Below are positions 2,177 through 32,391 of a stretch of DNA of 64,000 nt, in pieces. The notes beneath the pieces were generated by a model, which saw nothing but the letters and a program-made list of their open reading frames with translations, was not told the origin of the DNA and did not search any database. This DNA is from Pseudomonadota bacterium (GTDB lineage: Archaea; Thermoplasmatota; SW-10-69-26; JACQPN01; JAJPHT01). Position numbers and translations under genes: made by a program. Location: positions 1 to 64,000 of the forward strand of contig JAJPHT010000051.1 in the NCBI GenBank assembly GCA_021325135.1. The letters run 5' to 3'. Every line of letters begins with the position of its first letter. Positions within the stretch are counted from its first letter, which is position 1.

Positions 2177-2185
2177 ACAACGCCC
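2174..2185 (+). promoter_or_regulatory. recurring motif copy 3 (TGAACAACGCCC variant)
   Basis: The variant TGAACAACGCCC overlaps the stop codon of the Gp88-like gene and sits 14 bases before the ATG at 2200, the same spacing as the other copies. Confidence 0.5.
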
Positions 2186-2199
2186 TTCAGCTTCTTCTC

Positions 2200-3261
2200 A
2201 TGCCACAGACGACCCTGGAGAGCTACGCCTCTCCTCCAAAACGCAATCTCCGCCCAGAACCAAGGCTGACCGTCTTGAGTTTCGGAGCAGGTCAGGACTC
2301 CACCGCGATGCTCTACCTCTACCGCTACGACGATGCCTGGCGCGCCCGCTGGGCACCACGGGACTTCCTCGTCGTGTTCAGCGACACCGGAGACGAGCAC
2401 CCCGAGACGTACGCCCACATCGAGCGCACGCGCGCCTGGTGCGCCAAGGAGAACATCGCGTTCGAGACCATCACGAAAGACCGAGGGTATCACGCACCCT
2501 CCTGGAGGGACCTCATCACTCACTACCGCGAGTACGAGACGGTCCAAGTCCACGGCTTCTCCGGCGCGTGCACGCAGCAGCTCAAGATCGCGCCCATCTA
2601 CAAGTTTCTCGACGACTGGATCGGCCAGACCTACGGGTATCCCAGCGGCCAGAAGCGGGCCATCCACGCCTTCGGCCGGGAGCATGGGAAGATCCGCGTC
2701 CTCTTGGGCATGGCCGCCAAGGAGACAAAGCGCGTCCCTTACGAGAAGCGGAAGCCCGAACACCAGACGCTCGCCCTCACGCGGGGCCGGGCCAAGAAAC
2801 CCCTCACCCCGCAGGAGCGCGCCGCGCGAAACAACCCGAGCCTGTGGGGCTACTGGATCGACCAGTGCTTCCCGCTCTACGAGGAGGATATCGACCGCGC
2901 GGGCGCCCAGGCCATCATCAAGCGGTACGGCTGCGAGGTTCCCCCTCCTTCGAACTGCATGCGCTGCCACTACCAGAGTCCCATCGAACTGGTCTGGCTC
3001 TGGCGCTTCCATCCCGACAAGTTCCACGAATGGGAGCAGCTTGAGGAGGCGAAGATCCAGCGCGATGCCGCGGGCCGCCCCGACCGCGAGGGCGGGCTGC
3101 GCGTCATCCCACTCGCGGAGTTCCATGGCGTGTACGGCCACAAGCGATTGCGCGAACGACTCAACGAAGCCCTCGCGCAGCACGGCCACATGACCGACGC
3201 GGAGCTTCACGAGTACAAAATGAGCCACGGCCATTGCACCATGACCAACTGGGGCGGATGA
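2200..3261 (+). CDS. PAPS reductase-like PP-loop ATPase superfamily protein
   Basis: The N-terminus carries a PP-loop nucleotide-binding motif, SFGAGQDSTA (about residues 27-36), as in the phosphoadenosine phosphosulfate reductase/adenine nucleotide alpha-hydrolase fold. Downstream are an ACTQQLKIAPI segment (a Cys before a Lys-Ile-Pro, usual in phage 'PAPS reductase' proteins) and a CMRC pair near residue 260. These proteins are common in phages and in DNA-modification loci (the related DndC acts in phosphorothioation), but no dnd partner is visible here. A cytoplasmic enzyme is likely; its substrate is unknown. The stop lies 4 bases from the stop of the convergent metalloprotease-like gene. 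Confidence 0.75.
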   Translation: MPQTTLESYASPPKRNLRPEPRLTVLSFGAGQDSTAMLYLYRYDDAWRARWAPRDFLVVFSDTGDEHPETYAHIERTRAWCAKENIAFETITKDRGYHAPSWRDLITHYREYETVQVHGFSGACTQQLKIAPIYKFLDDWIGQTYGYPSGQKRAIHAFGREHGKIRVLLGMAAKETKRVPYEKRKPEHQTLALTRGRAKKPLTPQERAARNNPSLWGYWIDQCFPLYEEDIDRAGAQAIIKRYGCEVPPPSNCMRCHYQSPIELVWLWRFHPDKFHEWEQLEEAKIQRDAAGRPDREGGLRVIPLAEFHGVYGHKRLRERLNEALAQHGHMTDAELHEYKMSHGHCTMTNWGG

Positions 3262-3264
3262 CGC

Positions 3265-4020
3265 CTAACCGCCCGGGGTTGTGGACGTCGGGTCGTCCTG
3301 GTGATGATCATGGCGCCGCGCCTCCTCGGGCGAGGTGCCAAGGAGACGGGACAGATTCTCGTAGAATCCCCGTCCATGGGCGTTCCCGTAGCCTCGGCGC
3401 TTGTGCGAGCGGCTCAGGTGGCTGACTTCGTGCGCCATCAAGCGCGCGGGCTCGGTGACCGGATGCCGCCGCATGAGGTGGTCCACGTAGGAGCGCGACA
3501 CGCAGATGTCTCCCCGATGGTGGACCCAGCGCCTGCGCTTCAAGTGGACCAGTTCGCCCTTGATGCGACGCCAGCCCGGCGCGTAACCGACCGGGTGGGT
3601 GTGCACGTGGGCGCGCACGACTCGCGCGCACGCGCCCGGCGTGCCCGCCCAACGCACGGTCGGACGCACGACGCCAAGCGTCGTCGCGAAAGCTTCGGCC
3701 TCCCGTTGGAGGCGTGCCAAGAGCGCGGCCTCGTCCGCCTCCGCAGTCTCCCTCGTCTGCTCCTCCAACGCTTGGAAAAGCGTGGCAGGCTCGTGCACGG
3801 GTTCAGGCGGGGGCTCGGCGGCGCGGCGTTCCACGACGCGCCGGAGCGCGCGAGCGCTGCGCTCATGCCTCTTCATGAGCGTCGTGAGACGCTTGATCTT
3901 CGTAGCCAACTCTCGAACTTTCGTCTCAGCGAGAGCAAGGCGTTCCTCGGGAGTCTTCTTTGCGGCGCGGCGCTGCTTGGGCGTTGATATCACCGTGAAC
4001 GTAACGCCTTGCGAGGACAT
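3265..4020 (-). CDS. coiled-coil/SprT-like zinc metallopeptidase-domain protein
   Basis: The C-terminal third has a zincin motif: HEVSH at residues 197-201 and a third candidate ligand His215 in NAHGRGF, the arrangement of SprT/WLM-type metallopeptidases. Residues 15-115 are a charged, probably coiled-coil region rich in Lys, Arg and Glu. The tail is His/Thr/Pro rich. SprT-like proteases cleave DNA-protein crosslinks in other systems; a role here is inference. It is one of the few minus-strand genes in this region and is flanked by plus-strand units on both sides. Confidence 0.65.
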   Translation of the reverse strand: MSSQGVTFTVISTPKQRRAAKKTPEERLALAETKVRELATKIKRLTTLMKRHERSARALRRVVERRAAEPPPEPVHEPATLFQALEEQTRETAEADEAALLARLQREAEAFATTLGVVRPTVRWAGTPGACARVVRAHVHTHPVGYAPGWRRIKGELVHLKRRRWVHHRGDICVSRSYVDHLMRRHPVTEPARLMAHEVSHLSRSHKRRGYGNAHGRGFYENLSRLLGTSPEEARRHDHHQDDPTSTTPGG

Positions 4021-4136
4021 CTTTCCGTCGGCACGAGCGCGTTTGAGCGCATCGCAACAGTTGAAGCGATGAACACGCGGCGTGATATCACCAGCGCACG
4101 CTCATCGAACTTGAACTTGTTGTGGACACCTCGCGC

Positions 4137-4149
4137 TTGGACCAAGCCC
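4137..4149 (+). promoter_or_regulatory. recurring motif copy 4 (TTGGACCAAGCCC)
   Basis: A perfect copy, 15 bases before the ATG at 4165 of a small zinc-ribbon gene. It lies in the divergent gap between the minus-strand metalloprotease-like gene and the plus-strand operon. Confidence 0.6.
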
Positions 4150-4164
4150 TTCTGCGTTGCTTGA

Positions 4165-4338
4165 ATGAACGATCCATTTGTCTGCATTCGATGTGGAAAG
4201 CCTGCCTACGGCTTCCCCACCCAGGCGGTGTGCCGCGCATGCCGCGGCGCTCCCCGGTCGCCCCCCCGAGTGCTGCGGCCCGATCCCGACGAGTTCCTCC
4301 CCGACCTCCCTGAAGTCCCGATGCCGGAGGCGACATGA
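4165..4338 (+). CDS. small zinc-ribbon protein (57 aa)
   Basis: This 57-residue protein has two CxxC knuckles 12 residues apart (CIRC at 7-10 and CRAC at 23-26), the pattern of a minimal zinc ribbon, followed by a Pro/Asp-rich tail. Its stop overlaps the next ATG (ATGA at 4335-4338). The motif at 4137 precedes its ATG by the standard spacing, which supports it as a real gene and first member of the 4165-6089 operon. Confidence 0.6.
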   Translation: MNDPFVCIRCGKPAYGFPTQAVCRACRGAPRSPPRVLRPDPDEFLPDLPEVPMPEAT

Positions 4339-4739
4339 GGCCACCCAACCCCATCACGGCCCAGCAGAGCGCGGCCATCGACGATCTTCTCGAGGCCTCC
4401 GACGAAGTCGCACGCCTGCTGGACGTCTCCCTCCCCGACCTCATGCCGGCCATCCGGCGCCGCCTGGAGCGTCGGCCGCGTCTCATCTCACGCGAGGAGT
4501 TCGTCGAGCGCCTGCGCACCAACCGCTCGCTCCACGAGCAGGCCACCGAAACGCTGCGCGACCTGAGCCTCGCCTTCGAGCTGCGTGCGGAGGAGCACGA
4601 GGACGCACTCCTGCGCGCCTTGGGCCACGACACCACGGCGCTGGCCAACCTGCGGGAAGAAGCCCACCAATTCCACGCCGCCCTGGCGCGCAGACGAGCC
4701 GACCTCCGCCTGAGCCCGGTCAGGAGCCCGGAGGGATGA
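4335..4739 (+). CDS. hypothetical helical protein (134 aa)
   Basis: No family recognised. It is almost entirely alpha-helical by composition, with Leu/Glu/Arg-rich segments and likely coiled coil over residues 70-125. It begins at an ATGA overlap with the zinc-ribbon gene and ends 4 bases before the GTG of the DpdA-like gene, so it is translated as part of that operon. It could be a partner or adaptor for the transglycosylase-like enzyme; that is inference from position only. Confidence 0.6.
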   Translation: MRPPNPITAQQSAAIDDLLEASDEVARLLDVSLPDLMPAIRRRLERRPRLISREEFVERLRTNRSLHEQATETLRDLSLAFELRAEEHEDALLRALGHDTTALANLREEAHQFHAALARRRADLRLSPVRSPEG

Positions 4740-4743
4740 GCGC

Positions 4744-5655
4744 GTGGCCCGCCTGCGTCGGCGCCCCTTCATCGTCTACGCCGGCAGCGTCGCCGGCCTC
4801 CACGCCCTCCGGGAGCTCATCAAGTTCCAGATGGGGCGCTTGATCGCCGCCACCGCCTGGAAGAACCCGGAGCCTCGCATTCCGTGGTGCTTCGACAACG
4901 GTGCCTACCACGCCTACAGGAAGGCCCTGCGCACGGGCAAGACACCCGTGTTCCCCGAGCGCGAGTTCACCCAATGCCTCTGGGACGAGACGGTGGGGGT
5001 GGGCAAGATCGAGATGGGCCTCTGGGGCGCCACGTTGCGCAGTGTCAAGAACCCCCGCCGCAAGCCCCTCAACACGGGCTTCGCCTCCTGGCCCGACTTC
5101 GGCGTCTGCCCCGACATCGTCATGGGCGGTCGGGAGAGTCTCCACTTCAGCCTCGGCTGGATCGACCGCCTTCCGCGCCAGATCCCATGGCTCTTCGCGG
5201 CCCAAGACGGCATGAGCCTGCGCGACATCGCCTACGCCTGGGAATATGCCCTGGAACTGGAGTGCCCCTTCTCGGGCATCTTCGTGGGCGGCAGCGACGC
5301 CTTCAAGGACGAGATGACGCCCAGCCTGGTGCGCTTCGTGGCGCGCCGGGCCAACGACTACGAGCCCGATCCCTACTGCCACGTGGGTCGGGTCAGCCGT
5401 GTCGAGCGGATTGCCTGGGCCATACGCGTGGGCGCCACGAGCGTCGACAGCAGCGCCTTCGGCCGCGCCCACACCTACCAGCGGGCCCAAGAAGCACGCA
5501 ACCTCGTCCGCGTCCAACGCCACCTGGCGGACCGCGTCACGTTCGAGGAGGATCTCCTCTCCCAGGAGCCCTCGCCCCGATTCGTGAGCCGCAAGCGGCG
5601 CAGGATTCAGCCGACACGGACCCGTGGAAGAAGCCTCCCAGGAACCCCCAGATGA
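4744..5655 (+). CDS. DpdA-like (TGT-fold) deazapurine DNA-modification candidate
   Basis: The sequence matches the pattern of the phage transglycosylase-like proteins related to DpdA/TGT: PWCFDNGAY (about residues 47-55), a C-P-D-I-V segment (about 122), AAQDG (about 151), GIFVGGS followed by a Lys (about 178-186), and a terminal HVGRVSRVER...GATSVDSSAF block (about 213-240). DpdA enzymes replace guanine in DNA with preQ0-type 7-deazaguanines. Start is GTG 4744, just after the upstream stop. No queC/D/E or folE is visible; an archaeal host making archaeosine could supply preQ0. The catalytic residues were not verified, so a TGT-fold protein of other function remains possible. Confidence 0.6.
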   Translation: MARLRRRPFIVYAGSVAGLHALRELIKFQMGRLIAATAWKNPEPRIPWCFDNGAYHAYRKALRTGKTPVFPEREFTQCLWDETVGVGKIEMGLWGATLRSVKNPRRKPLNTGFASWPDFGVCPDIVMGGRESLHFSLGWIDRLPRQIPWLFAAQDGMSLRDIAYAWEYALELECPFSGIFVGGSDAFKDEMTPSLVRFVARRANDYEPDPYCHVGRVSRVERIAWAIRVGATSVDSSAFGRAHTYQRAQEARNLVRVQRHLADRVTFEEDLLSQEPSPRFVSRKRRRIQPTRTRGRSLPGTPR

Positions 5656-6089
5656 CAGAATGGATCAGCGACATCGTATTCTCCTTTGACCAAAACCGAC
5701 GCATCACGAGCGTGCCCTGCCCAGATTGTCCCAGCCGGGAGGGAGAGGTGTGCGTCGGTGTCCCTCAGGGATCTCACCACTTCCGCCGCGTCCAGGCCGC
5801 CGGCGTCCCCACGCCCATCGACGTGGGCCTCTCGGCCTACCTCGACGAAGCCCAGGCCAAGGCGGCCGCCCTCCTGACGCACCCCCCAGCCGCGCTGGCC
5901 GCGGACCTGCGCGCAGGCTACCTCGACGTGCTCGCTCGGGCCTTGGCTCTCCTGGCCGTCTTGGAGCGGAGCGGGCGACGCGACATCCTCGACACAGAAC
6001 CCATGGACATGCTCAGCGAGGCCTTGGAGGAAACGGCGTTCCTGATCCTCGTGGCCCACCACATGGCGGCACGCGACTCCCCCTCATAG
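5652..6089 (+). CDS. phage-type zinc-binding protein (145 aa)
   Basis: Near the N-terminus it has CPDC, then a third Cys (about residue 33), a Gly, and a His-His-x-x-Arg; this CxxC-x(5-6)-C-x(n)-H-x2-R pattern is the one repeated in the 700-residue protein at 13411 and in phage zinc-binding domains. The rest is helical, Ala/Leu rich. Its ATG overlaps the stop of the DpdA-like gene (ATGA at 5652-5655), making it the last member of that operon. Function unknown; nucleic-acid or protein binding through zinc is the simplest guess. Confidence 0.55.
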   Translation: MTEWISDIVFSFDQNRRITSVPCPDCPSREGEVCVGVPQGSHHFRRVQAAGVPTPIDVGLSAYLDEAQAKAAALLTHPPAALAADLRAGYLDVLARALALLAVLERSGRRDILDTEPMDMLSEALEETAFLILVAHHMAARDSPS

Positions 6090-6124
6090 ACTGCGCACCC
6101 CGAGAGCACGTTGGAACCGCCAGT

Positions 6125-6138
6125 CTGAACCAAGTCCC
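6125..6138 (+). promoter_or_regulatory. recurring motif copy 5 (CTGAACCAAGTCCC)
   Basis: The variant CTGAACCAAGTCCC, 13 bases before the ATG at 6152, shows the CTGAA form of the 5' half. Confidence 0.55.
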
Positions 6139-6151
6139 GACAGAGAAAACC

Positions 6152-6748
6152 ATGAGCCACCAGACCGAGACCATTCTGCACTCCCCCTACGAGACGCCCT
6201 ATGAGGACGCCTGCTTCTACCCAGCCGGAATCCTGGCCACGATCCGAGGCCCCAAGGGCAGCTTTGACATCGAAGCCCAAGGAGAACTCCGCGTCCTCAA
6301 CCACGAAACGGGCCAGGAGATCCGAGACTCGGACGAACTCCGCCGCGCGTTCCCCACGGGTCGTCTCCCGGACGAGACTGGCGAGGAGACGCCCTGGGAG
6401 GTCTCCTCCAACCGCTGGTGGGCCCTGATCCATCCCAACGACCCCTGTGGTGAACTCGACGACGTCTGCGACAGCTTCCACGGTGCCCTTGAGGCCGCCT
6501 TGGAGGCCGCGGGAGTGCCCTCCATGCCCTTTGACGAATTCGTCCAGCGCGATGGAGATGCCTGCCCGCACTGCTGGCTCAATCTCTCTGGCCGCGAATC
6601 CGCCAGCTTCGTCGAGGCCAGCCCCGGCAGCGTCCAGCGCGTCGGCACGTGCCCTGCCTGCAGAACGAGCTGGACCGAGCTGTGGAACCTCCGGGGCTAC
6701 GCCATCCTGACGCCCCAGCCGGAACCCACGCCCACCTCAAACGCATAG
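6152..6748 (+). CDS. hypothetical protein with C-terminal zinc ribbon (198 aa)
   Basis: No family recognised. It is acidic (many Glu/Asp), with a Trp-Trp pair near residue 89 and, toward the C-terminus, CPHC (about 147-150) and CPAC (about 174-177), a likely zinc ribbon. The start is the ATG 13 bases after the motif at 6125; the frame is open much further upstream, but that part overlaps the previous gene and has no coding character. Confidence 0.55.
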   Translation: MSHQTETILHSPYETPYEDACFYPAGILATIRGPKGSFDIEAQGELRVLNHETGQEIRDSDELRRAFPTGRLPDETGEETPWEVSSNRWWALIHPNDPCGELDDVCDSFHGALEAALEAAGVPSMPFDEFVQRDGDACPHCWLNLSGRESASFVEASPGSVQRVGTCPACRTSWTELWNLRGYAILTPQPEPTPTSNA

Positions 6749-6800
6749 GCCCGTCGGCACGACGCCTTCTTGGGGTCCCACCCCCTTGCAGAGGCCAGGC

Positions 6801-7388
6801 ATGACGGCGCCGCCACCCTCCTCGAGGAACACCCCCTCCGCTGAGGGGAAGGCCCGGTGGCCCACGCCCCAAGCGCTGGGCCGGATCCGAGTCCCAGCAG
6901 ACGTCCAGGAGGCTTGGCGCAGCATTCCTGAAGTGGCATGTAAGGGGCTCTGCCAGGCTTCCTGCCGGGCCTGGAGCGCGACCCAAGCCGAGGGCCGCAT
7001 CTTGGAGAGCGCCGTAGGCCCGGTCCAAGTCGAGGGCCCAACATGCCCCTTCTTGACCACAAAGGGGCGCTGCGGAGTTTACCGCCTGCGCCCCCTCGTG
7101 TGCCGCGCCTTCGGCGCAGTCCCGAGCCTTCCTTGCCCACACGGATGCGAGCCAAAAGACGGCATGCTGCTCTCGGATTTTGCCTTCTACGAGATCCACG
7201 CGCGCCTTGCTGGGAAGGGACCCAAGTATTCTCCCTGGGCCAGCGACGCTTGCCTTGCCTGTGGAGGCGCTTTGGACGCCGAGGCGCGGCAACGGGGCGA
7301 CCTGGAATGCGGGACGTGCCTCCTGAGGAACTTGGCCCAACGCGCGCCCGTCCTCTGGCAGCAACAAGAGGCCATGAACCTCGACTGA
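6801..7388 (+). CDS. YkgJ-type Cys-cluster (CxxxCxxxC) protein
   Basis: The protein has the cysteine array of the YkgJ/UPF0153 zinc- or iron-chelating family: C47, C51, C55, then C82, C91 and C101 followed by FGAVP, and C112/C116. An additional CLAC and CGTC pair near the C-terminus suggests an extra ribbon. The family's role is not settled. ATG 6801 is preferred; a TTG 15 bases upstream is also in frame. No clear recurring-motif copy precedes it. Confidence 0.6.
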   Translation: MTAPPPSSRNTPSAEGKARWPTPQALGRIRVPADVQEAWRSIPEVACKGLCQASCRAWSATQAEGRILESAVGPVQVEGPTCPFLTTKGRCGVYRLRPLVCRAFGAVPSLPCPHGCEPKDGMLLSDFAFYEIHARLAGKGPKYSPWASDACLACGGALDAEARQRGDLECGTCLLRNLAQRAPVLWQQQEAMNLD

Positions 7389-7410
7389 GCCAGCGGTCCC
7401 CGCCCTCAGG

Positions 7411-7692
7411 CTACGCGCTTGCCTCGCGGGCGCGCAGTCGGGCCGCGAAGGCGTCTAGGTCGTGCTCCCGGGCGAGCTTGACCCGGATCGTCTCGACGAG
7501 CGCCTCCACTTGCGGCCTGGTGAACACGAAGCTCACGCCCGTGTTCCCCGTCGTCGATTCGAGGAGCCAGTCCTCGCCATCCCGGCGCAGGACGATTCCT
7601 TCGGCGATCTCGACCTCCGCATTGACGAAGCGAATGTCGGCCATCATCCGCGCATCCTCTTCAGGCGTCAGGTCTCTTGCAGGTTCAACCAT
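7411..7692 (-). CDS. hypothetical protein (93 aa)
   Basis: A minus-strand 93-residue protein with no recognised domain. The N-terminal half contains beta-type sequence (EVEIAEGIVLRRDGEDWLLE) and the C-terminal half is helical. It converges on the YkgJ-like gene. Coding character (GC-biased third positions, no rare clusters) supports it moderately. Confidence 0.45.
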   Translation of the reverse strand: MVEPARDLTPEEDARMMADIRFVNAEVEIAEGIVLRRDGEDWLLESTTGNTGVSFVFTRPQVEALVETIRVKLAREHDLDAFAARLRAREASA

Positions 7693-7913
7693 GCGCTCCT
7701 CGTGACCAGGAGGTATCTTGAGAGTGCCGGTGGCCCCTCCCTCGAACCGCCGGAGGGCTCAAGACCCCCACCACTGCAGCGCTGCGCCCGCGCTCGCCCA
7801 CCATTCGCCGAGGCCGCGTCTAAGCCTTCGGCACTCGCCCCTTCCCGCCGCAACAGCGCTCCTGCGATGAGAGAGCTGGCGCTGCACGTGTCCGAAGACT
7901 CCTGTTGACAACC

Positions 7914-8024
7914 ATGATCCCAACCGAATCCCCAGCCGTCTCCACCTCAAGTCCGCAAGACACGTCCCGTGTTCCGCCGACACCGAACCGGGCCCGCTCG
8001 GTTCTCCTCAGGAGGAAGGCCTGA
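7914..8024 (+). CDS. leader micro-ORF (36 aa)
   Basis: ATG 7914 opens a 36-codon frame rich in Ser, Thr and Pro that ends with TGA overlapping the ATG at 8024 (TGATG). The last codons also contain the AGGAGG ribosome binding site of the following gene. Like the leader at 688, it may couple translation. The 220 bases before it hold no convincing gene. Confidence 0.3.
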   Translation: MIPTESPAVSTSSPQDTSRVPPTPNRARSVLLRRKA

Positions 8025-8365
8025 TGCGAATCCGCCTTTCCGTCGAGGGCCCCGAGGATGAGGCCGCCTTGGTCGAGAGAGTGCGTCTCCTGGAAAAGGC
8101 AGAGGGCCACCCCGCATGGTACGCCCTGGTCAAGCTGCGCGACGGCCGAACCCTCTTCGGCACCTACGGCGCCGACGCGGAGGGGTGCATTCTCCTCACG
8201 AACGACTGGAACCTCGACAACCTCCCTGATCTCGCGCACGTGGCCCGACGCCACGGCTGGCTCGCCAGCGAGACCCGTGTCGCACTCCACCCCAGCAAGA
8301 TCCACTGGCTGGAGTTCGTCCCCGAAGGAAGCCCCTTCTTCTACTCGGGCGCGCGGCACGAGTAG
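8024..8365 (+). CDS. hypothetical protein (113 aa)
   Basis: This 113-residue protein has a strong Shine-Dalgarno (CAGGAGG) 7 bases before its ATG, unusual for this region. The middle (WYALVKLRDGRTLFGTYG, about residues 31-48) looks like a small beta-barrel, comparable to the DUF6338/Sm-like 'interaction with DNA/RNA' folds, but no family is claimed. No signal peptide or membrane segment. Confidence 0.55.
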   Translation: MRIRLSVEGPEDEAALVERVRLLEKAEGHPAWYALVKLRDGRTLFGTYGADAEGCILLTNDWNLDNLPDLAHVARRHGWLASETRVALHPSKIHWLEFVPEGSPFFYSGARHE

Positions 8366-8383
8366 CCTCTCGTCTCTCATCGC

Positions 8384-8396
8384 CTGAACCAAGCCC
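8384..8396 (+). promoter_or_regulatory. recurring motif copy 6 (CTGAACCAAGCCC)
   Basis: CTGAACCAAGCCC, 15 bases before the ATG at 8412. Confidence 0.6.
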
Positions 8397-8411
8397 CTTG
8401 AGAACCATTCC

Positions 8412-8946
8412 ATGTCTTCCGACCAAACGACAGGCCCGAACAACCCCACTGCCCCGAACCACGCTGGCGCTCTCCTCCTGCTCGGCTCCCTCTTGGACCA
8501 GGACCACGTCGCCGCGACGCGCGCGAAGCTGAAGGAGGCGATGGAGAATCCCTGGTGGCTTCCCTACCAAGTCCACCACCCAGAGGGGGTGAGCGGCAAC
8601 GTTCGCCTCGCTCGGCGGCACGTGGCTGACGCGTGGACGTGGTCGCCCCCCAACGGGCATCATCTTCGACTGGGTCTGACACGACATCTGGCGCGACCTC
8701 GACCCCCGGAACCTCCTCGAATACGACCGGCTCACGCGCCGTTTCAAGAGCATCGCGAAGCGTCAGGAATGCTGGGCCGAGGCCTTCCTCGCTCGCCTCG
8801 CCAACATCTACGACGGGCTGGAGAGCGCGGTGGCCGAGGCCAACCGCGCCACGCGCGCCCTCAACGAGGAGCGCTACCACTCCCTCCTCAAGATCCTCGG
8901 GCTGGATGCCGCGCCCGCCACGCCCCCTTCCCGGGAGGGCACTTGA
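8412..8946 (+). pseudogene. frameshifted gene with an in-frame TGA
   Basis: From ATG 8412 a plausible protein runs to about residue 75. Coding character then moves to another frame near the six-C run at about 8644-8650. In that frame the sequence reads TGIIFDWV, a TGA, then HDIWRDLDPRNLL and a good helical tail (ANIYDGLESAVAEANRA) ending at TGA 8944-8946. The first frame instead becomes an Arg/Pro/His-rich shadow. One indel plus one nonsense change, or assembly errors, would explain this. The intact product would be about 175 residues of unknown function. Confidence 0.5.
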
Positions 8947-9094
8947 TGGCCACGGAGCAGCGCCTCTGGCCTCCAGACCCTTGAAAGCGGCAGGCGCCGC
9001 ATCGCTTCGCAAGAGCCCAGGTCGCATTCCACCGAGCGTTTGAAGCAGTCGGCCTGTATCACCCATCTACCCATCCCCCTGCCAAGGAGTCAAA

Positions 9095-9538
9095 ATGCCG
9101 TCTGTGAAAACCCGAGAATTCCAAGTTGTGGCAGCCCGCGAGGCCGACGTCTACCGCGACTTCGCCAGAATCCACGAGTCGGCGCGCAAGGACGGACGAG
9201 GCAGGCCAATGCTGGAGGGAACCATTGCGCGGGTCAGAGTCCATGGAGGCAAGCGAGCGCTCGTGATTCTCCGCGGTGACGAAGAGGGAAAAGGCCTGGT
9301 GCCTCCCAGAATCCGAATCGATGACGCAACACGCCAGAAGCTCGGCCTGGCCAAAGGCATCACAGTCAGCCTGGAACTTTCCAAACCCCGCATTCTTGGG
9401 ACCTGGCGTTGGGCATGGTCCGCGACCGATCCGGCGTACCGCGTTGCTGCCCGACTCGCCTTCATCTCCTTGGTCCTGGGATTGCTCGTGGGGATCCTGG
9501 GACTCGTCCTGGGCATCATCCCCTTCTTCATGCGCTGA
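9095..9538 (+). CDS. hypothetical C-terminal membrane protein (147 aa)
   Basis: The first ~100 residues are soluble, with strand-rich sequence including GTIARVRVHGGKRALVILRG. The last ~30 residues (VAARLAFISLVLGLLVGILG and beyond) form one long or two short membrane segments ending FFMR. It is therefore likely tail-anchored in the cytoplasmic membrane. No family recognised. A purine-rich AAGGAG lies 7 bases before the ATG. Confidence 0.6.
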   Translation: MPSVKTREFQVVAAREADVYRDFARIHESARKDGRGRPMLEGTIARVRVHGGKRALVILRGDEEGKGLVPPRIRIDDATRQKLGLAKGITVSLELSKPRILGTWRWAWSATDPAYRVAARLAFISLVLGLLVGILGLVLGIIPFFMR

Positions 9539-10915: not shown

Positions 10916-10981
10916 ATTCCCGGAGCGGAGCACCCTTTCCTGACACGACCGCACAGCGCCCCCTCAGGCGCACCTGTGCCC

Positions 10982-10995
10982 CCTGAACCAAGCCC
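10982..10995 (+). promoter_or_regulatory. recurring motif copy 7 (CCTGAACCAAGCCC)
   Basis: CCTGAACCAAGCCC, 13 bases before the ATG at 11009 of the DNA methyltransferase gene. Confidence 0.6.
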
Positions 10996-11008
10996 TTTTG
11001 GCATTCTC

Positions 11009-12175
11009 ATGGTAGTCCAAGGACACGCCAGCAGCAAGCCTGATTCCCACTTTCCTCACCAGACTTTCCAGACGCATCTAGGCGCTCTGCCACCTGCCCA
11101 GAAGACTAGTCCCTCCATCGCCCTCTGGGAAGCCAATGTTCTCGCCGACCTCGCTACAATGTCCTATGAAGAGGTCTCCGCGAAGCATGGCATCAGCCGA
11201 GGCAAGATCTGGAAACTCGCCCTCCGCCACAACGCGAGAAAGAACGAAGCACGAATCCAAGAACGCGCAGCCGCACGCGCCCGGCGACGGAAAGAGTTCC
11301 TTCAGGAGCTCCTCAACGCGTCCACGACGAGCGACGTCCTGGATTTCCTGGATGGGCTGCCGGATGAGTCGGTGGCGCTTCACATCACGTCGCCTCCCTA
11401 TAATGTGGGCAAGCCGTACGGCGACGCGCACCTGATCGACAAGCACCGCTTCCACTACTACATCGGCTGGCTTCTCCAAGTCGTCAGCGAGCTGGCCCGG
11501 ACGACGGCGCAGGGCGGGGTGATCTGTCTCCAGGTGGGCAACACGCACACGGACCAAGGCGCGCGCTACCCCCTTGACTGCGTCCTCTTCGAGCACCTCT
11601 GCGCCATGGGCCTGACCTACCAGGACCGCGTCGTCTGGGAATTCCCCCACGGCCTCACGCCCAAGAACCGGCTCGCCGAGCGCTACGAAGTCATGCTCAT
11701 TTTCAGCAAGGGCGCGCCCAAGACCTTCAACGCCACGCCCGCCCGCACGCCCCAGAAGGAACCCGACAAGCGCGCCTTCAAAGGACCCAACAAAGGCAAG
11801 TTGAGCGGCAACCCCTTCGGCGCCCACCCCACGAACGTGTGGCGCATCCGCCACCTGGGCCACAACCACAAGGAGCGAACCGGCCACCCCGCCCAGTTCC
11901 CCGAGGAGCTCGCCCGACGCGCCGTGCTTCTCTACACCATGCCCGGCGATCTCGTGGCCGATGTCTTTTCCGGAAGCGGGACAGCCCTGGCCGTCGCCAA
12001 GAAAACAGGTCGCGCCTTCGTCGGAGCCGACCTATACTACGAGGATCTCCGCGCGCAGCGGCTTGCCGCCATCGAGCCCGACCTCGCTAGCACCCTTCCC
12101 GGCGTGACGCCTGAGTCCATCGCCATCTGGGCGGCCGAAGCCCGAGCCGTCACGGCGAGCGCCACCCCATCCTGA
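11009..12175 (+). CDS. N4-cytosine/N6-adenine DNA methyltransferase
   Basis: This is a beta-class-type amino-methyltransferase: the catalytic motif TSPPYNVGKPYG lies at about residues 127-138 and the SAM-binding motif VFSGSGTAL at about 318-326, in that order. A GGVICLQVGN strand and a target-recognition region (about 205-290) lie between. The N-terminus has a helix-turn-helix-like segment (YEEVSAKHGISRGKIWKLAL, about 52-71). No restriction endonuclease is adjacent, so it looks like a solitary (orphan) methyltransferase, as often carried by viruses and plasmids. ATG 11009 is chosen by motif spacing; an upstream in-frame start overlaps the motif. Confidence 0.85.
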   Translation: MVVQGHASSKPDSHFPHQTFQTHLGALPPAQKTSPSIALWEANVLADLATMSYEEVSAKHGISRGKIWKLALRHNARKNEARIQERAAARARRRKEFLQELLNASTTSDVLDFLDGLPDESVALHITSPPYNVGKPYGDAHLIDKHRFHYYIGWLLQVVSELARTTAQGGVICLQVGNTHTDQGARYPLDCVLFEHLCAMGLTYQDRVVWEFPHGLTPKNRLAERYEVMLIFSKGAPKTFNATPARTPQKEPDKRAFKGPNKGKLSGNPFGAHPTNVWRIRHLGHNHKERTGHPAQFPEELARRAVLLYTMPGDLVADVFSGSGTALAVAKKTGRAFVGADLYYEDLRAQRLAAIEPDLASTLPGVTPESIAIWAAEARAVTASATPS

Positions 12176-18149: not shown

Positions 18150-18440
18150 TCAGGGGAGTTCGATTCTCATGATGTTTGACCCGCTCACGGGTTGGAAGCC
18201 GCACTTGGCGTAGAATGCTCGCTGGCGTTCAAGGTCAGCGGCATAGCCGCCCGGTTCCACGAGAACCACGGCAGGGCCTTGCCGCCGGATGGCTTCCAGG
18301 AGCCGCTTGACCATGCGCTCCCCAAGGCCTCGGCCTCGCTGGGCCGGATCGCGGACGACGACCCGAGTGACGTACCACTCCAAGCCCACGCGCGAGGCCT
18401 GAGCCGTCGCGATCGGAACGCCGGGACGACCGAGATGAAC
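18150..18440 (-). pseudogene. GNAT acetyltransferase remnant (N-terminus lost)
   Basis: The minus strand encodes the core of a GNAT fold: TRVVVRDPAQRGRGLG (acetyl-CoA-binding loop R/Q-x2-G-x-G/A), VVLVEPGGY and the final AFYAKCGFQPVSG strand-helix. The frame looks coding from about 18440 (HLGRPGVPIATAQASR), but there is no ATG/TTG start there; the first possible start is GTG 18389, inside the fold. Other frames upstream show no good continuation. It is therefore probably a truncated or frameshifted acetyltransferase. Confidence 0.5.
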
Positions 18441-18686
18441 TGAGGATGCTCCATGACTGCCAACTCGGGGCTGGCTTCTCCCGCGGCCTCAGTCGGCGCG
18501 GATCCATCGATCACGACGCTTCACCCAAAACGAGAATCATAAACGTTCCCAGAAGAATCCCAAGAAGAGTGGGGTGCTCGACCCACGAACGCCCCTGCTT
18601 TCCCATGGCTCTGCGAAGGGACTACTTTCGTCCCGCCCACCAGAACCTTTGCTTCGTCTAAATGACTATTCCGGGGCAATTCGGAT

Positions 18687-19604
18687 GTGGTGGCCGTGGA
18701 CGCGCGGTCGAGTGTTGCCCAACTTCTCGCGCAAGGGGAGCAGTTGGAGCGGGACGTCGCCGGCTTGATGAAGCCGCGGGACCGGAAGGTGGTGGGGCAG
18801 TTCGGCCGTGCCGCGGCCCGTGAACTGAGCTTGCCACCCCTCGCGCAAACCGTTTCGGGACTCTTTTTTGACGGCAAGCTCAAGGAGCGACAGGCCGAAC
18901 TCGAGGCTCGCTGCAACGCGCTCTACACCCAAGCTCGTTCCGTCTTGGGGCAGGTCTCGGTCTACAAGCCATCGATCAAGATCGGCGGCAACAGCGCTGA
19001 GCTCGTACGTCAACTCGCCAAGGCGAACGATGGCGTCAAGCTCCTAACTCGAATCCGGAACCTGAATCGCGTGCTGCGCCGCCTTTCTGAGGCGGATCTC
19101 GTCTACAACGCCCACATCCCGGCGCGGATCAAGGAGGAGCAAATCCGAACGTGGCACGAGGAACGCGAACGTCGGGCATTGCGCTACGTGGACCTCTCCG
19201 ACTTGCCACCCGGCTTCGTCTCGATCAAGTTCCCCAACCGCGAAGCCCTCCTGAGCCGATTGGGCGGATACCCCGCCGTGCGGGAGATCATGGAGGGCGC
19301 CATCCACGCCGCCTCCGGGGATGCCCCTGATGGCCGCCAACAAGCGCTCGGCTCCTGCCGACGCGCTTTGGAAGCCCTGGGGCGCGAACTGACGGGAAAA
19401 GGCGACTGGCGCGAGATTGTCCTCCGCGTCGCCGACCCCGACGTTGGCGCCTTGCTACGCAAGCTCTACTCACTCCTTAGCGCAAAGGGCGCCCACGGAG
19501 GCAAACGCGCCTCCGAAGCGGATGTCGAACTAGGCATGCAACAGACCTTCGGAGCTCTCTTCTGGATGATCGAACACCGCACCAGCTTGGGGAGCAGAAG
19601 ATAG
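18687..19604 (+). CDS. helical protein, possible Abi/HEPN-like defence component (305 aa)
   Basis: Mostly helical. The C-terminal ~90 residues (RRALEALGRELTG..., LSAKGAHGG, then ASEADVELGMQQTFGALFW) resemble the helical C-terminal domains of abortive-infection proteins, in which a Gly-His motif precedes a long hydrophobic helix; this is a weak similarity. The start is GTG 18687, about 30 bases after an AT-rich TAAATGACTATT that could be a TATA box. It begins a run of genes with defence-like features up to 23013. Confidence 0.45.
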   Translation: MVAVDARSSVAQLLAQGEQLERDVAGLMKPRDRKVVGQFGRAAARELSLPPLAQTVSGLFFDGKLKERQAELEARCNALYTQARSVLGQVSVYKPSIKIGGNSAELVRQLAKANDGVKLLTRIRNLNRVLRRLSEADLVYNAHIPARIKEEQIRTWHEERERRALRYVDLSDLPPGFVSIKFPNREALLSRLGGYPAVREIMEGAIHAASGDAPDGRQQALGSCRRALEALGRELTGKGDWREIVLRVADPDVGALLRKLYSLLSAKGAHGGKRASEADVELGMQQTFGALFWMIEHRTSLGSRR

Positions 19605-19637
19605 GTTCCCAGCACGCGTCGCATGGGATGACCACCA

Positions 19638-19646
19638 TCCAAGCCC
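19638..19646 (+). promoter_or_regulatory. recurring motif, partial copy 10 (CCAAGCCCC)
   Basis: Only the 3' half (ATCCAAGCCCC) is kept, about 14 bases before the ATG at 19661. An in-frame ATG also exists upstream at 19628, so this copy is uncertain. Confidence 0.3.
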
Positions 19647-19660
19647 CTCAAAATGAGTCA

Positions 19661-20965
19661 ATGACCCGAGCCTGGAACGGCGGTTCCTTCATCAGGGTCT
19701 TGCGGGTTTCGGCGGGCATGTCATCCACAAGTCCTCGGTTGTGGGTCGTGACGATCCGTGCGACGTCCTCGATTCGGCTCAAGGACGATACCATCCTCTA
19801 CGTGCAGGCGGGCCCCGATTCGTCGCTGCCCGTCCGCGGCGTACGCTTGCGGAACTGGCGTAGCGAGGGTCAGGATGGAGCGATGGGACTCTTGGCCCAG
19901 GCCGCGGGCGAGTATGCCAGTGCCGAGGCCGCCGTCGCCACGCTGGCCAATCTGGCCTCGCCCTACCTTCAATTGGCGGCCATCGCGGCCAACGCGACGA
20001 TCAGCGAACCATTCGAGGTGATGGCCTCCGCCCCACCTCGAATGCCGACTGACACAGGCACCTTCGTCGTGGAGCGCCCCATCCAGCCCCAGTGGTCGCC
20101 GTGGGTAAGGCGGGAGCTTGACGCGAACGCCCTCAAGGAGTTCAGCCAAGCCGTCGAAGCCCACCCCCGCAAGGACCGGCTCCACCGAGCGATGGCCCAC
20201 TACAGCCTCGCCCTGGACAAGCTCGATCCAGGGAACTGGATCATGGCCGCGGAGCACCTCTACATGGCCGTGGAAAACCTCGGCCGCGTCGTCCACCAAC
20301 GCCTGCTCCAAGCCGGCGGGCTACCCGACACGGGCGAAAGCAAACACAAGCTCGCCATCGCCCACGGCTTCCAACCCGCGAACGAGAAGGACCGCTCCCA
20401 CCTCAATCGGTATGACGCCTGGGTCCGTGAAACTCACGTCTTTGGTGGCGACCGCGACTGCTACAAGAAGCTCCTCGACGCCAGCGACAAGCTCGAACAC
20501 GGCCTCTCCGGTTTCGATGAAATCCGCGGCCACGCCGACCAGGCCACCCTGAAAGCCTACGGCTACGTACGGCGCGCCATCCTCCGCGAGGCTGGCGTCC
20601 CCAAATCCTCGGAACTCTTCGCCAAGCGCCTGGACCTCCCCCTGGGACCGCTGCGGCCGATCATGGTTCTCGAAGGCACGTACACCGACACCTCGACGAC
20701 GCCCGAGCCCAACCCAGACCCTATCCAGGAGCCTTGGCCCATCTTCGATGGGCTCCAGCTCGCCGTGGAGATCGACCAAGTGACAGACGGTAAGGAGGAT
20801 GCGCGCCACGTCCAGCTCAAAGTGAACGGAGACGGCAGCCCCTTGAGCCCGGCGCAGACCGTCCACAGCCTCAAGCACACGCTCCTCTACCAGCATCCTG
20901 AAAAGGGAACGGTCACGATCCCAGTGTCGCCCACCGAAATCACCGTCCATGAACGTGCGCCGTGA
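19661..20965 (+). CDS. HEPN-like/helical hypothetical protein (434 aa)
   Basis: The middle (about residues 175-290) is a helical region with HYSLALDKLDPGNWIMAAEH, the kind of Asn-Trp helix pair seen in HEPN-type and ApeA-like proteins; this is inference. The N-terminal part is beta-rich (DDTILYVQAGPDSSLPVRGV) and the C-terminal ~90 residues are strands separated by a Pro-rich linker. It follows the Abi-like gene by about 56 bases on the same strand. ATG 19628 is an alternative start. Confidence 0.5.
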   Translation: MTRAWNGGSFIRVLRVSAGMSSTSPRLWVVTIRATSSIRLKDDTILYVQAGPDSSLPVRGVRLRNWRSEGQDGAMGLLAQAAGEYASAEAAVATLANLASPYLQLAAIAANATISEPFEVMASAPPRMPTDTGTFVVERPIQPQWSPWVRRELDANALKEFSQAVEAHPRKDRLHRAMAHYSLALDKLDPGNWIMAAEHLYMAVENLGRVVHQRLLQAGGLPDTGESKHKLAIAHGFQPANEKDRSHLNRYDAWVRETHVFGGDRDCYKKLLDASDKLEHGLSGFDEIRGHADQATLKAYGYVRRAILREAGVPKSSELFAKRLDLPLGPLRPIMVLEGTYTDTSTTPEPNPDPIQEPWPIFDGLQLAVEIDQVTDGKEDARHVQLKVNGDGSPLSPAQTVHSLKHTLLYQHPEKGTVTIPVSPTEITVHERAP

Positions 20966-20982
20966 AGCGTTCCAGCCGCGGG

Positions 20983-21792
20983 TTATCTCGGCTTGGGGCT
21001 TTCTGTGGGGTCGAGCTGCATTGTGGAGACGCTGAGGAAGCGGCCCTGGGGCGGCGTCCAGACGGCGCGGACCCACTCCGGAACATCCGCGTGGCGGCCC
21101 GCAAGGCTCGCGCGCGCTTGTCGGCCGGCAGCGTAGGCGACGAAGTCGGCCACTTCGACGCCAGGCTCGGCGAGCTTGCTGGGCGAGAAGAACTTCTCGG
21201 TCGGGATGGGGTGCAGCCCAGTATCGTTCTGGATGGCGAAGTGATAGGTTCCAAAGACGCGGCTGTATCTGGCGCGCAGCCGGTCGGTGGCCTCGAAGAT
21301 CATGAACGCGCGGGCGTACGATGTCGTGGGAATCGCCTCGGCGATCTTTGGCATGAGCGCCAGCGCGAAGGAGGCCATGAGCTCGTCGTTCCCGCGCAAG
21401 TCGCTTGAGGCCTCGACAAGCTGCTGGCCTGGATGCGTTGTGGCGTGGGTGAAGCCGCGGCCAACGCGGTTGAAATCACTGTGCAGGAAGAAGTCACGGA
21501 TCGGGTCGAGGAGATCGCGTGGGGCGCCGTTGAGGTCCTTGGCGTGCAGGTGCGTGTCAGCCCTGCCGAAGTGTTCCTCCTTCATGCGGCGCCACGGCCC
21601 ACGGATGAGAGCGAGGTAGTTGGCCACGGTGGTGACGACCGCGCCCATGCAGAAAACGGGCGATCCATCGCCAGAGGCCGTGGGAACCTCGTGGCCGCTC
21701 TCGTCGAGGAAGACCACGACATCAGAAGGGTCTGGTTGGACGGATTCCTGCCCGATGTTCAGGGTCCAAGTCCAACCTCCCGAAGCAGGCAC
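20983..21792 (-). CDS. DUF3800-family protein
   Basis: It has the DUF3800 signature: a first strand ending VVVFLDESG (about residues 24-32, acidic pair on a strand), GADTHLHAKDL-type central sequence, and a final VEVADFVAYAAGRQAR helix with Asp. The fold is considered RNase H-like, and members are common in phage-defence loci and mobile elements. Start GTG 21792 lies about 25 bases from the TATA box at 21815, which fits a leaderless transcript and places the start after the longer open frame seen upstream. It converges with the gene ending at 20965. Confidence 0.75.
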   Translation of the reverse strand: MPASGGWTWTLNIGQESVQPDPSDVVVFLDESGHEVPTASGDGSPVFCMGAVVTTVANYLALIRGPWRRMKEEHFGRADTHLHAKDLNGAPRDLLDPIRDFFLHSDFNRVGRGFTHATTHPGQQLVEASSDLRGNDELMASFALALMPKIAEAIPTTSYARAFMIFEATDRLRARYSRVFGTYHFAIQNDTGLHPIPTEKFFSPSKLAEPGVEVADFVAYAAGRQARASLAGRHADVPEWVRAVWTPPQGRFLSVSTMQLDPTESPKPR

Positions 21793-21814
21793 ACGACGCG
21801 ACAGAATCGCCGGG

Positions 21815-21824
21815 CTATATATGG
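21815..21824. promoter_or_regulatory. shared divergent TATA box
   Basis: CTATATATGG reads as a TATA box on both strands. It lies about 25-30 bases before the DUF3800 start (minus) and about 50 bases before the DUF4917 start (plus), so one symmetric box may serve both genes. Confidence 0.55.
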
Positions 21825-21870
21825 CCTCGTTAGTGCGGGATCGTGGCGAGTCCTGAGGGGGCCTGAATCT

Positions 21871-23013
21871 GTGGCGGTCCACGTCCTCGACTACCTCAAA
21901 GAAGTCCTGCCCACAGGGCCCAAGGCCCCGTGGCCCACGGAAGGGGGACGCATTCTCCTCTTGGGGAACGGCTTCAGCATCGACCGCGACTCGGCGTTCC
22001 ACTACGACTCACTCTGGAACGTTGCCAGCGCAGCCGGCGCCCTTTCTCCCCGCGCGAAGGACTTGGCGGCCAAGCTGGGCACGACGAACTTCGAGACGGT
22101 CCTCGCCGCGCTCGAAACCCAACGCGGCCGCGACAAAGACATCGACGAGGACATCCAAGGCGTCCGGCTGGCTCTCATCACCGCGCTCAAGAAAATCCAC
22201 CTGGAACCCCATGTCGCTTTCAGTGAGCACGAGATCGCCTCGTGCGCCTTCTTCCTGGGCCAATTCAAGGAAGTCTTCACCACCAACTACGATCTCCTCC
22301 TCTACTGGATCTCCAACAAGAAGCACAAGCTCCTGGGCACCGGCGAGGAAGGCGCCTTGATCCAGTTGTTCAAGGACGGCTTCTGCCTCGAGGGGCAAGT
22401 CCCTGACGCTCTCGCCTTCGCACGCAGCGTCATGCTCCACCCCAAGGAGGGCACGCCCCAGCGCGGCTTCCACTTCCTGCATGGCGCCCTGCATCTGCTC
22501 CAGCAGGACGGTGTGGCGTGGAAGCGTCGCGTCCGCACCGCCGAATTGATGGGCCACAAGTTCAAGCTCGACTACCTGCGCCGCGACATCGTCGCGGCCA
22601 TCGAGAGGGGTCACCTGCCCCTCTTCGTCTCGGAGGGCGACAGCCAACGCAAGCTGGGACGCATCCGCGCCAACAATTACCTCCGCTTCTGCTACGACCG
22701 GCTCCAAAAAGGCGTCACTGGTGATCTTGTGACGTTCGGCTTCTCCTTCTCCGCGCAGGACGATCACATCCTCGAAGCCATCGCCAGAAACGCAGCCATC
22801 CGGCGCATCTTCGTGGGCGCCCGTCTCTACGAAGCTCAACCCAAGGAGGACCTGGTCAAACGCGTCGAACACCTGCGCGCCCGGCGCGAGGCCATCGCGA
22901 CCACGGCGCTGCTCCCGTACGAGCCGCTCGATGTCCTTTACTATGACGCGAGCACCGCATGCCCGTGGAACTCGCCTCTGGGGAAGGGCGATCACCCGCA
23001 TTGGAAGAAGTAG
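21871..23013 (+). CDS. DUF4917-family protein (SIR2-like defence candidate)
   Basis: The N-terminus has LLLGNGFSIDRDSAFHYDSL (about residues 30-49), the hallmark of DUF4917 and related SIR2-like proteins, with VFTTNYDLLLYW near residue 135 and later FHFLHGALHLL and FGFSFSAQDDHIL. These motifs form a Rossmann-type NAD(+)-binding pattern, and such proteins are often found in anti-phage islands where they deplete NAD. The NADase role is inference. Start GTG 21871 is preceded by GAGGGGG. It is divergent from the DUF3800 gene. Confidence 0.7.
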   Translation: MAVHVLDYLKEVLPTGPKAPWPTEGGRILLLGNGFSIDRDSAFHYDSLWNVASAAGALSPRAKDLAAKLGTTNFETVLAALETQRGRDKDIDEDIQGVRLALITALKKIHLEPHVAFSEHEIASCAFFLGQFKEVFTTNYDLLLYWISNKKHKLLGTGEEGALIQLFKDGFCLEGQVPDALAFARSVMLHPKEGTPQRGFHFLHGALHLLQQDGVAWKRRVRTAELMGHKFKLDYLRRDIVAAIERGHLPLFVSEGDSQRKLGRIRANNYLRFCYDRLQKGVTGDLVTFGFSFSAQDDHILEAIARNAAIRRIFVGARLYEAQPKEDLVKRVEHLRARREAIATTALLPYEPLDVLYYDASTACPWNSPLGKGDHPHWKK

Positions 23014-30180: not shown

Positions 30181-32391
30181 TCAAGAGAAGTCGAACAGCT
30201 TGACCTGCTTGGTCGGGCGCCAATCGATGTCAAGGCGATCGAGCACCGTCTCGATGAGCCCCTTGTAGTATTCCTTGTCGAGGCGCTTGAAGGCCTCCTC
30301 GGTGGGGGGCTCGTAGCCCTGGCTCGTCTTGACGTACTCCAATTGCTCGCCCTTCTTGATCTCGCGGCCGTACTTCTCCTGGTACTTGCGCGCGACCTGG
30401 GCGCCCACGGCGTTCTCGGCCGCATAGTCCGAGAGCGACTTCCCCAGGCGCACGCGCATGACGAAGTCCTCGTTGGGATACTGCGCGAGGTCGAACGCGG
30501 CGCGGCCCACGGTCTTGGGGTCGGCGCGGCGCGTGAGGAGCGCGTCGGAGACGGCGGCCAGCGTCTTGTCGAACACGCCGCACTGCGAGGAGGCCTTGAA
30601 CGCGACGCCGTGCTTCTCGATGCGGCCGTCGTGGTGGAGAAGAAGGTACGACTTCCGCTCGTGGAAGTAGCCCGCCTTGTACGCGTCCATCTCCAGGCGC
30701 ATGAAGTTCTCGCCGCCCAGCTCGTGGGAGACGAACCCTTCGACGACGCGGTTGATGCCCTCGACGTCGATGGGCTTCGCGGTGTAGATGCCGTCGGTGT
30801 CCGTCTCGACCTTGCCGTCCCCGATGAACTCCTCGCACACGCGGATGAGCCGGCGCGCGACGCCCACGATGGCGACGGCCACTGGGAGCGAGCCGTAGCG
30901 GGAGAAGCCGCTGGCCATGTTGCCGTAGATGGAGTTGAGGACGACCTTGATGACGTTCTGCTGGGCGACGAGGCGGTCGCGCTCGTCGGGGTCCGTCGTC
31001 TCCTTGGCCTTCTTCTTCAGCTCCAGGCGCAGCTTCAGGAGGCGCCGCATCTCCAGCGCCATGGGGCTGACGCCATCGACCTCCACGAGGAGGTTCACGC
31101 CGCGGCTCTCGTCGGGGATGCTGTAGATGCGCTTCGCGCCGTCGCGCCGGCTGCTGAGCGACTTGGTCAACTCCTCGGTGCCGATGAAGCGCGTGTTGTC
31201 CGCGCCGCAGCCCAGGGAGACCATGATGCTGGGGTACATCGACGAGAAGTCGACCTTCCAGAGCGGCTCGAAGAGGCCGCGCTGGTAGATCTCCACGATG
31301 CCACCCACGAAGGCGACGCCGCCGGTCTGGCCGAAGAGGTCCTTGTAGCGCTCCTCGTTGGTGCCGTCGCTCACGATGCGCGGGCTCGCGTTCTTGAAGA
31401 CGCGCCCCTGGAGGATGTTGGTGTGGAAGATGCTCGTGCTGCGGAGGACCACGTTGAGGGGCGCGCCGTAGAACTCCGCCAGCGCGATGAAGTTCCTCCA
31501 GTAGATGCGCGCCAGGTTGCGCGTGAGCCGCACGTCGTTCTTGTTGTAGTCCGCGAGGCGCTGCGTGCCCACGAGGCTGCGCGTGTCCGTCATGTCCTCC
31601 TTGACGACGGGGAACTTCATCCAGGCCGCGACGGTCTTCAGCTTGAGGTCCTTGATGCCGTGGAGCGTCTGGTCCAGCTTGACGCTGGTGAAGACGTCGT
31701 ACACCAGGCGGCCGTCGAGGACGATCTCGTCCTCCTCCTCGTCGGGCGTGCGGTTGCCGCGCCCCAGGCGGCTCGCCTGCATGCCGTTCTGCTTGAGGCG
31801 CTTGATGATCATGGGCAGGTCGTAGCCCGTGACGTTGTAGCCCACCAGCACGTCGGGGTCGTGCTTCTTGATGGCCGCGAGGAACGCCTCCAGGATGGGG
31901 ACGTCCGACTTGCCGTCGCCCAGCGCGACCTCCGGCTCCAGGTCGTCCACGGTCCAGCCGATGGCGATGAGCGGGTCCTTCTCCGTGGGGAAGCCGCTCC
32001 CGGAGGTCAATTGCTCGATGTCGATGAACATGAGGCGCGGCTCGCGGCCCAGGGGGAAGCGGCGGAAGAAGTCGGGCTCGTCCATGAGGACGCGCTCGAC
32101 GTAGGGGTTGTGGTTGTCCGCCATCTCCAGCGGCTTCTCCTCGCGGTTCATGTCGGCGACGCCGCGCACCGTGGGGAAGTCGTACTGGTACCACGTCTCG
32201 GGCTTCAGCGACGAGACGGGCTTGAGCGTCACCTCGCGGACGTTCGCGGCATTGGGCACGTCGCGGCGGCGCTTCGAGAAGCAGTAGGGAAGGAAGGGCG
32301 CAGGCACGCGCTCCAGCCCGTTGGCCGCCCAGACGTCGACCTGCTGGCGGTCGTTGACGATGCTGCGGTAGGCCGCGAGCGGGACTTGCAC
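30181..32391 (-). CDS. polB: family-B DNA polymerase (PolB)
   Basis: A 736-residue replicative-type polymerase. The 3'-5' exonuclease motifs are intact: D124-I-E126 (Exo I), N186...Y190-D191 (Exo II) and Y282-x3-D286 (Exo III). Polymerase motifs follow: A, DFSSMYPSIM (about 381-390); B, KVVLNSIYG (about 482-490); C, DTDG (531-534). The last residues QVKLFDFS form a PIP-box-like tail for the sliding clamp. No intein is present. It is on the minus strand behind a 51-residue zinc-finger gene. Confidence 0.93.
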   Translation of the reverse strand: MQVPLAAYRSIVNDRQQVDVWAANGLERVPAPFLPYCFSKRRRDVPNAANVREVTLKPVSSLKPETWYQYDFPTVRGVADMNREEKPLEMADNHNPYVERVLMDEPDFFRRFPLGREPRLMFIDIEQLTSGSGFPTEKDPLIAIGWTVDDLEPEVALGDGKSDVPILEAFLAAIKKHDPDVLVGYNVTGYDLPMIIKRLKQNGMQASRLGRGNRTPDEEEDEIVLDGRLVYDVFTSVKLDQTLHGIKDLKLKTVAAWMKFPVVKEDMTDTRSLVGTQRLADYNKNDVRLTRNLARIYWRNFIALAEFYGAPLNVVLRSTSIFHTNILQGRVFKNASPRIVSDGTNEERYKDLFGQTGGVAFVGGIVEIYQRGLFEPLWKVDFSSMYPSIMVSLGCGADNTRFIGTEELTKSLSSRRDGAKRIYSIPDESRGVNLLVEVDGVSPMALEMRRLLKLRLELKKKAKETTDPDERDRLVAQQNVIKVVLNSIYGNMASGFSRYGSLPVAVAIVGVARRLIRVCEEFIGDGKVETDTDGIYTAKPIDVEGINRVVEGFVSHELGGENFMRLEMDAYKAGYFHERKSYLLLHHDGRIEKHGVAFKASSQCGVFDKTLAAVSDALLTRRADPKTVGRAAFDLAQYPNEDFVMRVRLGKSLSDYAAENAVGAQVARKYQEKYGREIKKGEQLEYVKTSQGYEPPTEEAFKRLDKEYYKGLIETVLDRLDIDWRPTKQVKLFDFS

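Follow-up and report, generated by a model that had tools for sequence, protein, structure and literature searches.

We analysed a window of 64,000 nucleotides, bases 1-64000 of a 71.7-kb contig from a draft genome that totals 3.77 Mb. Four genes that an earlier note on this DNA had placed at 18687-23013, and had taken together as a possible new anti-phage island, are all present as open frames. They are listed here with the features around them.

18687-19604, + strand: ORF1, 305 aa, an orphan protein without a family
19628-20965, + strand: ORF2, 445 aa, a rare family that has no name, with the motif GD..CY...SD..EHG
20983-21792, - strand: DUF3800 gene, predicted RNase H-like fold (PF12686, 7.7e-9)
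21815-21824, no strand: CTATATATGG, a TATA box, almost a palindrome, in the gap from which DUF3800 and DUF4917 diverge
21871-23013, + strand: DUF4917/PDC-S21 gene, 380 aa, SIR2-fold (PF16263, 1.3e-34; PDC-S21, 2.2e-65)
1-26400, no strand: low-GC3 genomic island, defined by GC3 and family matches, truncated on the left where the contig ends

The third-position GC of the four genes is 0.76-0.84, against 0.97 just to the right of ~26.4 kb; within the island GC3 is mostly 0.6-0.9, and for most genes to its right it is 0.95-1.0. This low third-position GC supports the assignment of the four genes to a foreign island. According to family matches the island also carries a ParB-like gene, an N6/N4 DNA methylase, a PAPS-reductase-like gene and a phage-type zinc-finger protein, and DUF4917 is followed downstream by two frames, of 68 aa and 216 aa (the latter without a family), and a ParB-like gene. 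For this foreign island the mobile-element setting proposed in the earlier note is plausible; no integrase was recognised in the left ~26 kb. In relatives, the ParB and zinc-finger proteins found matches over short stretches only, and an empty site, sought via a flanking gene, was not found. The methylase (10976-12175, + strand; PF01555, 1.5e-45) has no restriction partner recognised nearby, and the PAPS-reductase-like protein (1810-3261, + strand) belongs to a phage-linked family (phrog_424, 8e-27). Outside the island, 30181-32391 encodes a B-family DNA polymerase whose best matches among solved structures are archaeal polymerases (Deep Vent and similar); together with the TATA-type promoter, it makes an archaeal host very probable. 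Ribosomal RNA was looked for in 0.75 Mb of the genome and not found.

ORF1 ends 23 bp upstream of ORF2 and the two are likely read as one transcript. ORF1, previously described as Abi-like, gave no match in Pfam or NCBIfam, and its best PADLOC match (0.0069 over 30 residues) is not convincing. No convincing homologue was found in 59 related and 301 Chloroflexota-group genomes, plasmids and viral contigs, where searches returned only short, chance-like matches. Next to it, the frame at 18165-18540 (- strand), which may not be intact, looks by eye like the C-terminal end of a GNAT acetyltransferase. The HEPN-like label given to ORF2 fared no better: Pfam, NCBIfam and PADLOC gave no family match, and the sole weak profile match was PaREP1 (E = 0.095). 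The HEPN R-x4-6-H motif is not conserved among the three known members of the family: all retain the Arg (R267), whereas G, H and K occupy the place of the His. Relatives of ORF2 are rare, with one in 301 Chloroflexota-group genomes and one in 347 Actinomycetota-group genomes (L153, L154), and the motif GD..CY...SD..EHG is conserved across the family. The Chloroflexota-group relative (28% identity over 325 residues) adjoins apparent conjugation genes, DUF4238 and a type III restriction-like helicase; one relative lies on a 6-kb contig without the other three genes, and both distant bacterial relatives are located away from DUF4917. A single-sequence structure model of ORF2 reached a pLDDT of 44.5, too poor for a comparison with HEPN folds.

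The DUF3800 label is borne out by Pfam (36.8 bits against a cut-off of 21), and alignment with other DUF3800 proteins shows that the FLDESG and VADFVAYA motifs are kept in the window protein. Members of this family have an RNase H-like fold (PMC10910872), and some V-A2 and VI-F CRISPR loci include them as accessory proteins (PMC10910872, PMC12669027). The window protein resembles those accessory nucleases in its Pfam family and in the conserved DE and D motifs, but differs from them in its setting, as no Cas genes were recognised near it and no TPR domain in it, and the structured RNA linked to DUF3800 had no match in an Rfam scan.

DUF3800 and DUF4917 are divergent genes that start with GTG codons at 21792 (- strand) and 21871 (+ strand), which are separated by a 78-bp gap. 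The hexamer TATATA occurs once in the 64 kb, inside CTATATATGG; after dinucleotide shuffling the window holds 0.07 copies on average, and 6 of 100 shuffles contained at least one. The box lies ~27 nt from the DUF3800 GTG and ~52 nt from the DUF4917 GTG. The DUF3800 start is placed at GTG 21792 on account of the former distance, which fits a leaderless transcript. For DUF4917, 21871 is the most likely start; the open frame that extends upstream of it to 21433 is antisense to DUF3800. The symmetric TATA box of the earlier note is real, and its service to both genes is a matter of inference: CTATATATGG is a candidate bidirectional promoter, in which one box could make DUF3800 and DUF4917 co-expressed in the window. 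Nothing beyond this common promoter region connects the two genes.

In DUF4917, PF16263 matches residues 29-338 with 120.5 bits (cut-off 28), and two PADLOC profiles of PDC-S21, a candidate from a guilt-by-embedding survey whose products are mostly untested (PMC12988326), match it with up to 219 bits over residues 27-367. The GNGFS and TTNYD motifs noticed earlier are found at residues 32-36 and 137-141. An AlphaFold2 model built from 65 sequences (mean pLDDT 81.6, pTM 0.83) was compared with the PDB using Foldseek, and the top 37 matches were all anti-phage SIR2 systems: SIR2-HerA ranked first (E 5.9e-9), followed by ThsA, DSR2 and KomBC, and the probability of 1.00 against SIR2-HerA, ThsA and DSR2 indicates a SIR2 (Rossmann-type) fold. 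The structural resemblance is incomplete (TM 0.37-0.50; rmsd 7-9 A in most cases), which implies that a large part of DUF4917 is unlike known SIR2 effectors. In a profile search its TTNYDL and LHG motifs align with SIR2-HerA chains (E 0.0022 and 0.024), and N139, D141, H204 and G205 are invariant in all 65 DUF4917 sequences. In DSR2, N133 and H171 are required for NAD+ cleavage and have equivalents in ThsA and other defence sirtuins (PMC11087589); by alignment, this catalytic Asn/His pair corresponds to N139 (TTNYD) and H204 (LHG) of DUF4917. The fold matches, the aligned motifs and the invariant pair make the SIR2-like reading of the earlier note well supported, and we infer that the window protein, a long branch with at most 37% identity to the other members, is an NADase. 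Our literature search found no experiment on any DUF4917 protein.

Among 293 genomes of the host phylum, DUF4917 is present in the window's genome only, with no archaeal relative in the other 292, and by record title the best 80 genome loci of the family are all bacterial. The defence link proposed for this gene was upheld by its neighbours there as well as by the PDC-S21 profile. Across these best 80 loci, HsdS accounts for 15 of the 134 genes adjoining DUF4917, whereas the specificity-subunit family is represented by 0 of 102 genes lying more than 4.5 kb away; 25 of the 80 have an hsdS gene in the same orientation no more than 3 kb away. With hsdS upstream and hsdR downstream, DUF4917 is found in at least 14 of the 80 loci (L016, L017, L026, L028, L029, L030, L042, L045, L056, L063, L065, L072, L075 and L080), a lower bound set by the use of a single HsdR seed. 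This arrangement, DUF4917 between same-strand hsdS and hsdR in type I restriction operons, occurs in many bacterial phyla; among the plasmid copies, that of Methylobacter also adjoins hsdS and hsdR. Its recurrence agrees with how PDC candidates were nominated. The hsd-linked members are scattered on the tree, requiring 8-12 changes, so the linkage was gained or lost repeatedly. On plasmids DUF4917 is usually alone, often beside replication and mobilisation genes, and no common partner recurs in eight other plasmids, while in Vibrio europaeus it forms a one-gene cassette in an integron-type cassette run near the anti-phage gene hhe. The hsd linkage and these single-gene settings are consistent with a self-sufficient defence cargo. 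No hsd genes were detected among the window island proteins scanned.

Considering that the four genes are tightly packed into 4.3 kb within a foreign island, they could be taken as one undescribed defence island acting jointly, as the earlier note suggested. The neighbourhoods make this extremely unlikely: no other locus was found to combine any two of the four, DUF4917 loci elsewhere lack ORF1 and ORF2, and the relatives of ORF2 have conjugation-type and restriction-like genes as neighbours or lie on the short contig described above. This non-recurrence, which the earlier note had named as a refuting outcome, largely refutes a joint system. The note had coupled it with a missing link to defence loci, and such a link does exist for DUF4917 by itself in other genomes. 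A divergent two-gene system, with an RNase H-like protein as the sensor or regulator of a SIR2 effector and one promoter for both, has in its favour the symmetric box shared across the narrow intergenic gap and the role of DUF3800 proteins as CRISPR accessories, and yet we rate it very improbable. Homologues of ORF1, ORF2 and DUF3800 were not detected in the DUF4917 flanks (up to 8 kb) at 132 other loci, the DUF3800 search having used a home-made profile less sensitive than that of Pfam, and in the nine of 30 DUF4917-bearing genomes that do contain DUF3800, it is each time on another contig. If anything less probable is that the pair on its shared TATA box forms an immune module of two components, restricted to this probably archaeal lineage, where the RNase H-like protein would sense foreign RNA or DNA or restrain the SIR2 NADase.

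A non-defence role for the SIR2-fold protein, such as NAD-dependent deacylation that helps to maintain a plasmid or island, would suit the frequent location of DUF4917 on plasmids next to replication and mobilisation genes, and the ParB-like gene in the same island. We regard it as unlikely, given the linkage of the family to type I restriction genes and a structure nearer to defence SIR2 proteins than to sirtuin deacylases, with the first canonical sirtuin appearing only at rank 38 (1s7g, E 0.005).

We therefore favour, as the probable explanation, that DUF4917 is a stand-alone SIR2-fold, NAD+-cleaving abortive-infection effector that was acquired into the foreign island, most likely from bacteria. 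It is a candidate defence effector of a known kind, encoded by a single gene and already listed as PDC-S21; the island carries DUF3800, ORF2 and ORF1 as cargo of their own, and as these three neighbours do not accompany DUF4917 elsewhere, there is no new four-gene system. Its occurrence in one-gene transfer units and its rarity in the host phylum speak for this explanation. An infection signal would release the dormant protein, which would then cleave NAD+, and the loss of NAD+ would stop the infected cell. The position of DUF4917 inside bacterial hsd operons suggests a restraint and release like that of PrrC, which is released when a phage blocks restriction (PMC2610378). There, the type I enzyme might hold DUF4917 in check, and its loss or inhibition, for example when a phage blocks restriction, may be the trigger. 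For the window copy, near which hsd genes were not recognised, guarding cannot apply in this form.

Compared with PDC-S21 and Pfam DUF4917 at large, the window protein shows a near full-length match, every invariant residue and the single-gene setting; it departs from them in its probable archaeal host, its divergent arrangement with DUF3800, its long branch and an island without recognised restriction subunits. With the SIR2 subunit of SIR2-HerA (Nezha, GAO_19), its best structural match, it shares the SIR2 fold and the TTNYD and LHG catalytic motifs, but identity is only ~16% and no HerA ATPase adjoins the gene. ThsA, DSR1/DSR2 and KomC likewise have the defence SIR2 fold and the catalytic Asn/His, whereas the 380-aa window protein lacks an additional sensor domain or partner genes. 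The parallel with PrrC and RloC, effectors inside type I hsd operons, is one of setting and applies to bacterial DUF4917, since PrrC is an anticodon nuclease unrelated to it in sequence and fold.

Fold, catalytic pair and lodging between hsdS and hsdR give this widespread defence candidate a proposed mechanism that is precise and open to testing: by depleting NAD it may serve as a backstop for type I restriction enzymes, the SIR2 counterpart of PrrC. Of all the findings here, the hsdS-DUF4917-hsdR order lends itself best to a test, and the window adds a member of the family in a very probable archaeon, a domain in which tests of defence systems are few.

Finally, at the cut left end of the island, contig bases 1-538 match bases 1-535 of another contig of the same genome (C35; L228) at 89.6% identity and in the same orientation. 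Both contigs open with low-GC3 stretches and this common start sequence, which suggests that a repeat flanks both. At 3895-9136 of the second contig, a run of same-strand genes in low-GC3 DNA, the last of them an ABC-transporter ATP-binding gene, looks by eye like a ribosomal-peptide maturation cluster.
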